In this document: positions 43,684 through 63,807 of the stretch, piece by piece
How positions within the stretch are numbered: the stretch's first letter is position 1
How the letters are laid out: every line of letters starts with the position of its first letter
Origin: Aureliella helgolandensis
GTDB lineage: Bacteria; Planctomycetota; Planctomycetia; Pirellulales; Pirellulaceae
Direction of reading: 5' to 3'
Length of the DNA: 64,000 nucleotides
Assembly (NCBI RefSeq): GCF_007752135.1
Contig: NZ_CP036298.1
Span: forward strand, 7,432,501 to 7,496,500
The notes under the pieces: generated by a model
What the model was told of the DNA's origin: nothing
Database searches by the model: none
The model's input: only the letters and a program-made list of their open reading frames with translations
Made by a program: the position numbers and the translations under genes

Positions 43684-43799
43684 CGGGCTGTTGAAATAGT
43701 AACCCGCCGCGTGAGCAAGGAAAGATAACCTCCGCGACAAGTCAATTAAGGATGCTACCTCCGCATTAAAATTCAAATTGCGATTAAATCAACAGCCCG
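43684..43799 (-). repeat. 116-bp MITE-like element, copy 1
   Basis: Read on the minus strand it starts CGGGCTGTTGA and ends TCAACAGCCCG, giving 11-bp terminal inverted repeats. It aligns without gaps to 63661-63776 with 97 of 116 positions identical by hand count. It has no open frame and lies in an intergenic region between convergent genes. Confidence 0.85.
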
Positions 43800-43915
43800 T
43801 CTTGCAGCGGGTTACTATTTCGACAGCCCATCACGCGGCGGGACACTTATTTCAACAAGCCGTTACTATTTCTACGCGCCGCTCCCCCACGGTTAACAGC
43901 GGAGAACCCGCATCC

Positions 43916-54725: not shown

Positions 54726-55982
54726 TTGACTACCGTCCTTGTTATTGATGATGACCGTAGCAGCCGGCATCTCATTAAATCGGGTTTGAATGGACACCTC
54801 GGACTTCAAGTGGTGGAGGCCGCTGACGGCGACGCAGGACTAGCTCTTTTGGAAGAAACTCGACCATCAGTCGTGCTGCTCGATGTCTATTTGCCAAACC
54901 ACAACGGTTTAGAGCTGTTCCGCAAGATCAAGGCGATCGATCACAAGGTGCCGATCATCTTCATCACCGGAGACACATCGAGCGAAACGGCCATCGAAGC
55001 GATGCGTTCTGGCGCTTTTGATTACCTCTCCAAGCCTCTGCATATCGACCAACTACGGAACCTGACCCAAAGCGCCGTTCGCGAGCGGCAGCTGATGGAC
55101 GAACCGGTTGCGTTATCCGTGGGGGACGCCGATTCAGGGGGCGAACGGTTTATCGGCAGCTCAAAACCGATGATCGAAATCTACAAACAGATCGGCCGCG
55201 TGACTTCCCAAAGCGTGACCGTTCTGATCCGTGGTGCGAGTGGTTGCGGCAAAGAGCTAGTGGCCAGAGCCATCGTCCAGCACGGTGATCGAGGTACTGC
55301 ACCGTTCATCGCTGTCAACTGTGCTGCAATCCCAGACAACCTTCTGGAAAGCGAGTTGTTTGGCCATGAAAAAGGGGCGTTCACGGGAGCCGAAAAACGT
55401 CGTCTCGGACGCTTCGAGCAATGCGATGGCGGAACGATTTTCCTCGACGAAATTGGTGACATGTCACCAATCATTCAAGGCAAAGTCTTGCGGCTACTGC
55501 AAGAACAGAAGTTTGAGCGCGTCGGGGGTACCGAGCTGATCACCACGAATGTGCGCATCATTGCAGCGACCAATCGTCCCTTGGAGCAAATGGTGGAACA
55601 AGGGGAGTTCCGCGAGGATCTACTCTACCGACTCAACGGGTTCACGATTTCCCTGCCCAACCTGACCGAGCGCCGCGAGGACATCCCACTCCTCCTAGAA
55701 TACTTTTTGAGGCGGGCCAAGGCCGACATGAACCGACCCGAGATGGTGGGAATTGCGCCAGCCGCTCTAGATTTGCTGTGCAAGTACGAATGGCCCGGGA
55801 ATATCCGCCAATTGCAATCGGTGGTGCGGCAGTCGCTGCTCAATACGACCGGCACCGTAATCGGCCCGGAAAATTTACCCGACTTTATTCGTTCGTCGAA
55901 ATTGGTCACATCGCCCGTAGCCTCCGAATCGAGCAAAGGCGACCAAGTCTCCCCGCCCGCGATTGACCCGCTTAGGCTGTGA
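54726..55982 (+). pseudogene. 5' part of NtrC-type sigma-54 response regulator, cut off by IS
   Basis: This is a two-component regulator of NtrC type, truncated at the 3' end by an insertion. The frame has a TTG start at 54726. It has a receiver domain with phospho-acceptor Asp53, a sigma-54 AAA+ domain with Walker A GASGCGKE at 170-177, GAFTGA at 217-222 and DEIGD at 241-245, and ends after a Pro/Ser linker. Codon 416 is interrupted: bases from 55973 belong to the IS, which supplies the last codons and stop. The missing Fis-type DNA-binding domain lies at 57505-57811. The remaining product may still be made but could not bind its enhancer. The gene follows gltX by 195 bases. Confidence 0.94.
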
Positions 55983-57504
55983 ATTTTTAGCCAAGTGGTT
56001 TGCAAATTAATTTTAGGCGCTACAACTATAGCATGAATACTCAAAAACCATCGCAGCTTGCTCGTGTTTCCCGCCCCCATCGTATTCAAGTGGAAATGCA
56101 CATGCTTTCACTTGAAGATATGCTTCCGCGCGACCATCGTGCTCGCATTGTCTGGTCGTTTGTCAAAACGTTGGACCTAGAACCTCTGTATGAAAAGATC
56201 GTTGTCACCAAGAGCACCGTTGGCCGCAATAGTATTGCGCCGGAGATACTGGTTTCACTGTGGCTTCTGGCAACCTTGGATGGCATCGGCACAGCCCGAG
56301 AACTTGGTCGCCGATGCGAGACGGACATAGCCTATTTATGGACGCTCGGAAATGTCACGGTCAATTATCACACGTTGAGCGACTTTCGAGTGGAGAACGG
56401 AGCATTCTTGGAGAAGACGCTCGTTGACACGGTTGCCTCGTTGGTCGCCCAAGGTCTGGTGCCCCTGGAGACCATTGCCCAAGACGGAATGCGCGTTCGG
56501 GCTAGTGCAGGCAGTAGTTCGTTTCGCCGCAAGCCGACGCTTGAGTCATTGCAGCAGCAGGCTCAGGCTCACGTAGATAGATTGAAGAAAGAATCCGAGA
56601 ACGAATCCGATCGTTCCGATGGAGACGCACGTCGCCAAGCGGCAGTCGAACGAGCATCGCGTGAGCGTCAAGAGCGATTAGATGAGGCTTTGCGACAGTT
56701 TGAGGAGCTTAGTAAGCAGCGCGAGTCTCGGAGAAAAGGTGACGGCGAAAAGACTCGCGTGAGCACTACGGACCCTGACGCCCGTAATATGAAGATGGCC
56801 AATGGTGGCTTCGATCCGGCCTTCAACGTCCAGTTCGCAACCGATGCTGACTCGCGAGTAATAGTCGCTGTCGATGTTATCAACTCGGGAACTGACAGTG
56901 GCCAAATGGCACCAATGCACGAGAAAGTGTGCTCAACTTACGACAAGACACCCAAGACGCAATTGGTCGATTCCGCTTACGCAACCAAGGGCGATGTTAA
57001 GACCGTGGAGTCTAAAGGGACCGAAGTCGTCTCCACGATCCCCCGTGGATCGGTATTGGAAAGCAAAGGCAAAGATCCTCACGCGCAGCAACCTGGCGAA
57101 AGCGACGAATACACAGCGTTTCGCGCGAGAATGGCCAAAGAGGAATACAAAGAGCTTTACAAGACGCGCCCGTCGGTTGCCGAATTTCCCAATGCGGACT
57201 GCCGCAATCGGAACCTTCGGCAATTCAAAGTTCGAGGACTGGTGAAGGTCAAAGCGGTAGCGCTATGGCATGCCGTGGCCTTTAACTTCACACGCATGGT
57301 AAACCTGGGGGCCTTGGCAAGCTAAGCAGTTGCAAGGCAACCGCTTGGTTGAGAAATAACACAACTCGAAGAGATGAGCATGATGGACACGAGCTAACTT
57401 GCTGGCCAACAATCCGACCAAGTAAGACTTTCAGCCGCCAATTCGAAAAAATTTCGTGGTTGGAATACCAAAAGAGTCCGTTGGTGAAAAAACTTCACAG
57501 CCTA
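55973..57504 (+). mobile_element. IS1182-like insertion sequence, 1532 bp
   Basis: The element carries one transposase gene and ends in imperfect inverted repeats that begin TAGGCTGTGAA (left 55973-55983, right complement ending at 57504). The first eleven bases match exactly, followed by a T-run. A direct repeat GCT flanks it (55970-55972 and 57505-57507), consistent with a 3-bp target duplication. Excision with one GCT restores the codon CTG and the frame of the interrupted regulator. The transposase is in the same orientation as the regulator. Confidence 0.94.
56033..57325 (+). CDS. IS1182-family transposase
   Basis: The 430-residue DDE transposase has an N-terminal domain typical of the family (LVSLWLLATLDGIGTARELG). 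The catalytic acid residues are likely in IAQDGMRVRAS, LVDSAYATKGD and the EEYKELYKTRPSVAEFPNAD segment. The C-terminus GLVKVKAVALWHAVAFNF is the conserved end of these proteins. A basic low-complexity stretch lies near 175-240. ATG at 56033 was chosen over an upstream TTG at 56000. The gene is intact, so the element may still be mobile. Confidence 0.93.
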   Translation: MNTQKPSQLARVSRPHRIQVEMHMLSLEDMLPRDHRARIVWSFVKTLDLEPLYEKIVVTKSTVGRNSIAPEILVSLWLLATLDGIGTARELGRRCETDIAYLWTLGNVTVNYHTLSDFRVENGAFLEKTLVDTVASLVAQGLVPLETIAQDGMRVRASAGSSSFRRKPTLESLQQQAQAHVDRLKKESENESDRSDGDARRQAAVERASRERQERLDEALRQFEELSKQRESRRKGDGEKTRVSTTDPDARNMKMANGGFDPAFNVQFATDADSRVIVAVDVINSGTDSGQMAPMHEKVCSTYDKTPKTQLVDSAYATKGDVKTVESKGTEVVSTIPRGSVLESKGKDPHAQQPGESDEYTAFRARMAKEEYKELYKTRPSVAEFPNADCRNRNLRQFKVRGLVKVKAVALWHAVAFNFTRMVNLGALAS

Positions 57505-57811
57505 GCTGGGAGGTTCGGAGGAGGAACCGCAGCCGATCGAGCCGGTAAAAAGTGGCGGGGACTCCACCTTCGCGTTGTCCGCATTCATTGCTCAACGACT
57601 GGCCGACAACACCGAAAATCTATACGACGAGGTGATTGAGCAAGTAGAGCGAGTGTTGATCACGAAAGTTCTGGACGTTACCGATGGAAATCAATCCAAG
57701 GCGGCGGACATACTGGGAATTACGCGAGGGAAGATTCGAGACAGAATCGCCACGTTCGATATCCGCCTCGAACGGAATGTAACCCTAGGACAAAACGAAT
57801 CAGCTGAGTAA
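57505..57811 (+). pseudogene. 3' part of the interrupted regulator: Fis-type DNA-binding domain
   Basis: In frame from 57509 this encodes about 100 residues: a Glu/Pro/Ser linker and a helix-turn-helix of the Fis (HTH_8) type, VLDVTDGNQSKAADILGITRGK. This is the C-terminal domain expected of an NtrC-family regulator. A TAG at 57503 blocks the frame from the IS side, so only an internal start such as TTG at 57575 could express it. Joined to the 5' part it gives about 516 residues, a usual length for the family. Confidence 0.93.
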
Positions 57812-63660: not shown

Positions 63661-63776
63661 CGGGCTGTTGACTTAATAGCAATTTGAATTTTAGCGTGGC
63701 GGTTGCGTCCCAAACTGCCTTGTAGCGGCAACTATCTTTCCTTGCTCACGCAGCGGGTTACTATTTCGACAGCCCG
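63661..63776 (+). repeat. 116-bp MITE-like element, copy 2
   Basis: It starts CGGGCTGTTGA and ends CGACAGCCCG, and aligns without gaps to the reverse complement of 43684-43799 with about 84 percent identity. A GCGGGTTACGATTGCAACAAG stretch at 63784-63804 follows it, resembling the submotif GCGGGTTACTATTTCGACAG. It lies between the kinase gene and the convergent HPt gene. Confidence 0.85.
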
Positions 63777-63807
63777 TCAGGCTGCGGGTTACGATTGCAA
63801 CAAGTCC

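Follow-up and report, generated by a model that had tools for sequence, protein, structure and literature searches.

The IS1182-family insertion sequence (IS) that splits a sigma-54 regulator gene in the window, that is, in the whole 64,000-nucleotide stretch analyzed here (positions 7432501-7496500 of a single 8.44-Mb contig), is probably an active or recently active element that inserts at the centers of palindromes in the dispersed repeats of its host, and the copy in the window would be one that missed this target. This target preference, taken together with the off-target copy in the window, is the most informative point of the analysis and was missing from the initial annotation, which had been made from the letters of the DNA alone.

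The left end of the IS, TAGGCTGTGAA, begins at position 55973 of the window and its inverted right end closes at 57504, with the following features between and around them:

55970..55972, + strand: GCT, left copy of the 3-bp target duplication
55973..57504, + strand: the IS itself (IS1182 family, 1532 bp), a full copy like 16 others
55973..55988, + strand: left terminal inverted repeat of the IS
56000..57325, + strand: transposase, intact, IS1182, 441 aa, listed start TTG
57489..57504, - strand: right terminal inverted repeat of the IS
57505..57507, + strand: GCT, 3-bp target duplication, right copy

Each inverted repeat measures 16 nt, the two being 94% complementary, and they flank a single 441-aa ORF within 1532 bp, which is the architecture of an IS1182 element. 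The transposase scores 329.6 bits against the NCBIfam model of this family (NF033551, cut-off 270), and DDE_Tnp_1, DUF772, and DDE_Tnp_1_6 are above cut-off in it, in agreement with the earlier proposal that the gene is intact. A search of the window against Rfam gave no match at the gathering threshold.

The window chromosome carries 17 full copies of this element, each of 1532 bp and with an open transposase frame, and two short fragments. The full copies are 99-100% alike (0-10 mismatches with respect to the window copy), two of them being identical to the one in the window. Because all 17 begin and finish at the same bases, the borders are not a product of chance; the inverted ends and the GCT direct repeat lie exactly where the initial annotation had placed them, and copies with different borders, which would have spoken against it, were not found. 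The search for further copies and their 3-bp duplications, which it had recommended, shows an exact duplication in 15 of the 17, the triplets of L041 and L043 being off by one base, and the duplicated triplet differs between sites (GCT, GCC, or GGC). The fragments L048 (G000:C1:1359186-1359311; 82% identical, about 135 bp of the element) and L049 (G000:C1:1359609-1359698; 90% identical, about 88 bp of the element) in this genome (G000) are decayed pieces of a related IS, pointing to what may be an older IS wave.

Fourteen of the 17 copies share a single position within the dispersed repeat AACCC[GCY]GCGTSA, which varies slightly between sites; read in one orientation, their flanks are AACCC[GCY] and [GCY]GCGTSA. 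A fifteenth copy (L044) uses the same site reversed, and L035 is located in a degenerate reversed copy of the repeat with a 2-bp shift. By chance, 0.007 of 17 copies would be expected inside exact 14-bp motifs. With 15 of 17 copies at a fixed point of a dispersed host repeat, the element belongs to the functional class of REP-targeting ISs. Moreover, a C before and a G after the three-base center are found at 16 of the 17 copies (the exception being L042) and at all eight targets of relatives described below.

Uninterrupted exact matches to the repeat, AACCCGCYGCGTSA, number 238 in the window genome, against two for the backwards-read control. The corresponding number for any one of 59 relatives is 0 to 13, with eight exact copies in the congener G013. 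Two of the 238 matches lie in the window:

43701..43714, + strand: uninterrupted exact target repeat, AACCCGCYGCGTSA, with 2-mismatch inverted matches at 43800 and 43831
63746..63759, - strand: second uninterrupted exact target repeat

The stretches 43701-43844 and 63746-63790, composed of an exact repeat and its 2-mismatch neighbors, are free landing sites for the IS. Elsewhere in the genome, the repeat forms arrays, with at least six copies at a spacing of 202 bp in L218 (G000:C1:1887485-1888508) and at least five at 241 bp in L219 (G000:C1:2341077-2342054). Since an inverted pair 99 bp apart is the commonest neighbor spacing in the 30 loci read (eight pairs, the loci overlapping), the repeat resembles the terminus of a REPIN- or MITE-like element. 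It is not a REP in the strict sense of a 20-40 bp palindrome with a stable hairpin: its arms pair imperfectly, and three of its forms, folded as single strands, did no better than shuffles. Concerning an association with RAYT genes, none of the seven Y1_Tnp loci of the window genome has an exact repeat copy within about 1.5 kb, one of them (L233) containing two 2-mismatch matches. Also, no replication-strand bias is detected among the copies, the best of the origin/terminus layouts tried giving 12 of 17 and 60 strand shuffles on a coarser grid giving a mean of 12.6 and a maximum of 16, which does not favor single-stranded targets.

Of the 17 copies, that of the window alone lies outside any recognizable repeat. 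At its site, CCC[GCT]GGG, short palindromic arms surround a three-base center; the palindrome is kept, and most of the right half of the repeat is lost. A matrix built from 14 sites places it in the top 1.2% of positions, and the idea that the site is a clear copy of the repeat was rejected because its rank is only 56 of 5950 locally. A 3-bp palindrome like this one occurs by chance at about one position in 60, and the degree to which the site conforms to the palindrome and to the left part of the repeat is reached by chance about once per 60-90 positions; given this chance level, the insertion is best called an off-target hit on what would be a weak look-alike of the repeat. When folded as a single strand, the window site behaves no better than shuffles.

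In G013, which belongs to the same genus, a different repeat is hit. Four contigs of this genome carry the left end of a related IS, with 80% identity over residues 3-27, and the outer ends can be aligned; the copies break at contig ends, and no full-length element was seen there, its middle not being found. All four left ends come directly after ATGTGGCYCGACGCTCC, which has 464 exact copies in G013, two in G010, and none in the window genome. Among 29 uninterrupted copies, 17 continue with GCCGTCG, eight with GCGTCG, and four with GTCGTCG. This repeat is a hairpin with TCC in the loop, perfect in eight of the 29 and bulged or variant in 21, and its stable hairpin and high copy number make it a REP in the strict sense. 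The form with the GCGTCG arm folds with -6.8 kcal/mol (z -2.4) and the commoner form with GCCGTCG with -6.0 kcal/mol (z -1.4). A duplication of TCC predicts a right junction made of the IS end, TCC, and the right arm of any of the three forms, and a search for this junction gives three hits in G013 and none in the window genome. All three have the perfectly paired arm GCGTCG (chance about 2%), which slightly hints that full arm pairing is preferred. With regard to RAYT genes, one of seven loci of G013 has the G013 repeat, which is about what its density there would lead to expect.

Among the loci of other relatives (L109-L147, 39 in total), 28 reached 39% identity, and both IS ends could be called in 15 of these and not in 13. 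After removing L134 (right flank lacking) and six duplicates of the same target, eight distinct targets remain. In six of the eight, the arms are complementary around three bases, to a degree found in at most 0.35% of the positions of the same locus, for example, GTTTCGC-GGA-GCGAAAC and CTCGACTC-TCC-GAGTCGAG. A simple palindrome is missing in the other two (L115 and L121), L115 becoming palindromic once a bulge is permitted. The triplet duplication is exact in four of the eight; two of three bases agree in L120, and the triplets on both sides differ in L112. In L113 and L131, the triplets that flank the IS are reverse complements (GGA/TCC and TGT/ACA), not copies, for which another joining mode or rearranged inverted repeats may be suggested.

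Two of these targets, that of L110/L122 and that of L115 and L116, are dispersed in the genomes G126 (16 exact copies), G224 (35), and G230 (134) and have no copy in the window genome or in G013. In G230 and G224, two species of one genus, the counts are those of the target hairpin CATCACGCGGAGCGATGATG (L269-L273), which there often forms inverted pairs with a spacing of about 133 bp, in a REPIN-like manner. On a smaller scale, CGTGGCAAC, an arm of L121, occurs three times in 80 kb of its host and its reversed control not once, the numbers being small, and GTAGGGTCCGC, an arm in L124 and L131, is absent from the 120 kb sampled of each host (G092 and G061), a small sample, these two loci not being counted as repeat-targeted. 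In the five genomes counted whole, dispersed host-specific repeats are the targets of these ISs.

The most likely mechanism would be one where the transposase selects short palindromic targets, with arms around a three-base center, which are mostly supplied by the host's own dispersed repeats, and where the three central bases are duplicated through a staggered cut on either side of them. For the window chromosome, the usual target would be AACCC[GCY]GCGTSA, and in the window, the weak look-alike CCC[GCT]GGG in the linker of the regulator would have been used, detaching the Fis DNA-binding domain. Such a cut could be made on a linear palindrome as well as on a hairpin or cruciform, so the duplication is compatible with each of them.

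What the transposase reads may be a hairpin or cruciform rather than plain sequence. The varied arm sequences with kept pairing across relatives favor a reading of shape of this kind, whereas the poor folding and tight conservation of the repeat in the window genome favor a reading of sequence. Indeed, the element could be an ordinary sequence-specific IS that reads the primary sequence around CCGCYGCG, palindromy being incidental in that host repeats are often palindromes anyway. The repeat of the window genome folds poorly and is near-invariant over 15 sites, and the right arm after the triplet is alike in the targets of the window genome (GCGTS) and G013 (GCGTC), as would be expected in that case. 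Nonetheless, the arms used in the relatives differ and the complementarity around the triplet is kept in six of eight, and the site in the window is palindromic though the right half of the sequence is mostly gone. For the element of the window genome, plain sequence recognition fits the data equally well; as a general account, it appears possible but somewhat doubtful.

The consequence of the insertion in the window is a regulator gene in two pieces:

54726..55982, + strand: 5' piece of the regulator, NtrC-type (REC, sigma-54 AAA+, and lid), with a TGA just inside the IS
57508..57811, + strand: 3' piece of the regulator, Fis-type helix-turn-helix and stop codon

The left piece contains the domains Response_reg, Sigma54_activat, and AAA_lid_14, and the right piece HTH_8 of the Fis family, so that REC, Sigma54_activat, and Fis helix-turn-helix follow each other over both pieces in the order of NtrC-type response regulators. 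Unlike these, the gene of the window is split by the IS between the lid and the helix-turn-helix, the insertion point being a long variable linker. When position 55972 is joined to 57508, the sequence reads CCG-CTG-GGA in a single frame of 516 residues and a stop codon, which bears out the restored codon CTG and the approximately 516 codons first calculated by hand; the separation of the Fis-type DNA-binding domain also stands, HTH_8 being on the right piece only. In the 10 related loci examined, the regulator is always one uninterrupted ORF, which measures 493-557 codons from stop to stop and to which each half of the window gene aligns, as opposed to two separate genes lacking the IS, the finding that would have contradicted a split. 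The assignment to the NtrC type (REC, sigma-54 AAA+, and Fis helix-turn-helix in one frame in relatives) draws on domains named on the window pieces only, the relatives being single ORFs matched by both halves. Seven of the 10 loci are congeneric, namely L206-L211 (from G013, G010 twice, G007, G003, and G004) and L011 (from G002), with which the left piece shares 55-76% and the right piece 46-59% identity.

The upstream neighbor of the regulator is a glutamyl-tRNA synthetase-like gene, and those downstream encode an AI-2E family transporter, a DUF2383 protein, and a CHASE3 hybrid histidine kinase, none of these neighbors identifying its regulon. In six congeneric stretches (3.9-18 kb), gltX is found in none and the AI-2E transporter in one (L211), and given this unconserved gene order, some of the congeneric loci may be paralogues rather than orthologues. 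In L211 (G004), the AI-2E family transporter comes after the regulator, is 40% identical to that of the window, and is on the strand of the regulator, the one in the window being on the opposite strand. The 5' piece, the part that was scanned, is below the cut-off of the 25 NCBIfam models listed (115 matched), and for this reason, no specific role is named for the regulator.

The insertion looks recent, as first proposed, because the IS has no mismatches with respect to two other copies and both gene halves are still open, without stop or frameshift, and continue to match the congeners. Loss of DNA-directed activation by the regulator is likely, synthesis of a truncated REC-AAA+ protein may continue, and the strain may have lost control over a regulon. 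As for a split regulator that still functions, either with the truncated REC-AAA+ protein activating sigma-54 from solution or with the pieces cooperating, both frames are open and activators that lack a DNA-binding domain can function when their concentration is high; the genome also has paralogues 49-51% identical. Against this, the 3' piece has no start codon at the IS border, and the C-terminal domain is kept in all 10 related loci examined. Retained function is regarded as unlikely, and the regulator would be without DNA-directed activity.

Regarding the origin of the distribution of copies, the preference would be caused by the transposase rather than by selection against other insertions. 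Spread of the copies by recombination or duplication of an IS-bearing repeat, instead of independent targeted transposition, might be considered, since flanking repeats on both sides could recombine and the copies are 99-100% alike. However, when the 1.5-kb flanks are compared between copies, the longest match covers 185 bp (76% identity), which is the repeat length, the duplicated triplet depends on the site, and the window copy and L035 have their own duplications outside intact repeats, all of which makes such a spread very improbable. Near-random insertion followed by purging of gene hits, with survivors gathering in intergenic repeats, is barely credible: dispersed repeats of this kind are mainly intergenic, and 16 of the 17 copies split no start-bearing frame longer than 186 codons (L039; in L041, the spanning frame has 182 codons, with 85 and 96 on either side), the window copy being the only one that splits a long frame, but purging cannot yield 14 of 17 copies at the same base of a repeat and one there reversed, against the chance expectation of 0.007 given above.

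Several known systems resemble parts of this scenario. IS1272 and TnSha1 from staphylococci, members of the IS1182 family like the window IS, hit hairpin or inverted-repeat targets according to PMC5678879 and PMC4923244, the latter describing a target that is entered in either orientation. As reported there, IS1272 removes the stem-loop sequence wholly or partly, without target duplication, and shows no preference for a primary sequence, whereas the window element hits one repeat family almost exclusively and duplicates the three central bases. Here, the duplication is exact in 15 of 17 copies and both sides of the repeat are retained, which differs from a hairpin-replacing mode such as that of IS1272. 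Duplication of the loop appears as one hypothetical pathway in the model figure of PMC5678879. Also, palindrome-hitting members of the IS1182 family are on record, Siguier and colleagues being cited in passages of PMC4923244 and PMC5678879.

Similarly, for ISPpu9, ISPpu10, ISPa11, ISRm22, and ISPsy8, every copy within a genome is inserted at a fixed point of a dispersed palindromic repeat of the host, according to passages of PMC1525189, where IS1397, ISKpn1, and IS621 are cited as REP-targeting and the families named for this behavior are IS3, IS110, IS4, IS256, and IS5; the term IS1182 is absent from the main text of that paper. By the same passages (PMC1525189), ISPpu9 and ISPpu10 use the junction of bases 9 and 10 in the REP as their insertion point and duplicate 2 bp, compared with 3 bp for the window element. 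The high-copy inverted pairs, at 99 bp in the window genome and about 133 bp in G230 and G224, resemble the inverted REP pairs called REPINs (PMC3116915); unlike these, the repeat of the window genome is a poor hairpin, and its link to a RAYT gene was not found at seven loci. PMC6209633 and PMC10433421 treat IS1182 and REP-like subjects, in the passages concerned, without connecting them. No report joining IS1182 elements with REP-like repeats and duplication of the central bases was found among the open-licence PMC texts listed, and this combination is therefore regarded as new, palindrome-hitting IS1182 members and REP-targeting ISs being already known.

A broader reading, quite possible and proposed tentatively, is that a branch of IS1182 transposases in planctomycetes reads DNA shape. 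An extruded palindrome would be recognized, with its three-base loop cut at the edges and duplicated, and each element would follow the high-copy palindrome of its host, so that the target would change between congeneric species, harm to genes arising where a chance palindrome has a three-base center. For DDE transposases, where they insert is mostly explained by a preference for certain sequences. Congeners with related IS1182 elements in unrelated repeats are a natural test of whether a transposase reads the loop of a hairpin. The same material would allow a test of how an IS stays harmless by parasitizing another repeat, and the split gene of the window would be the price of a missed target.
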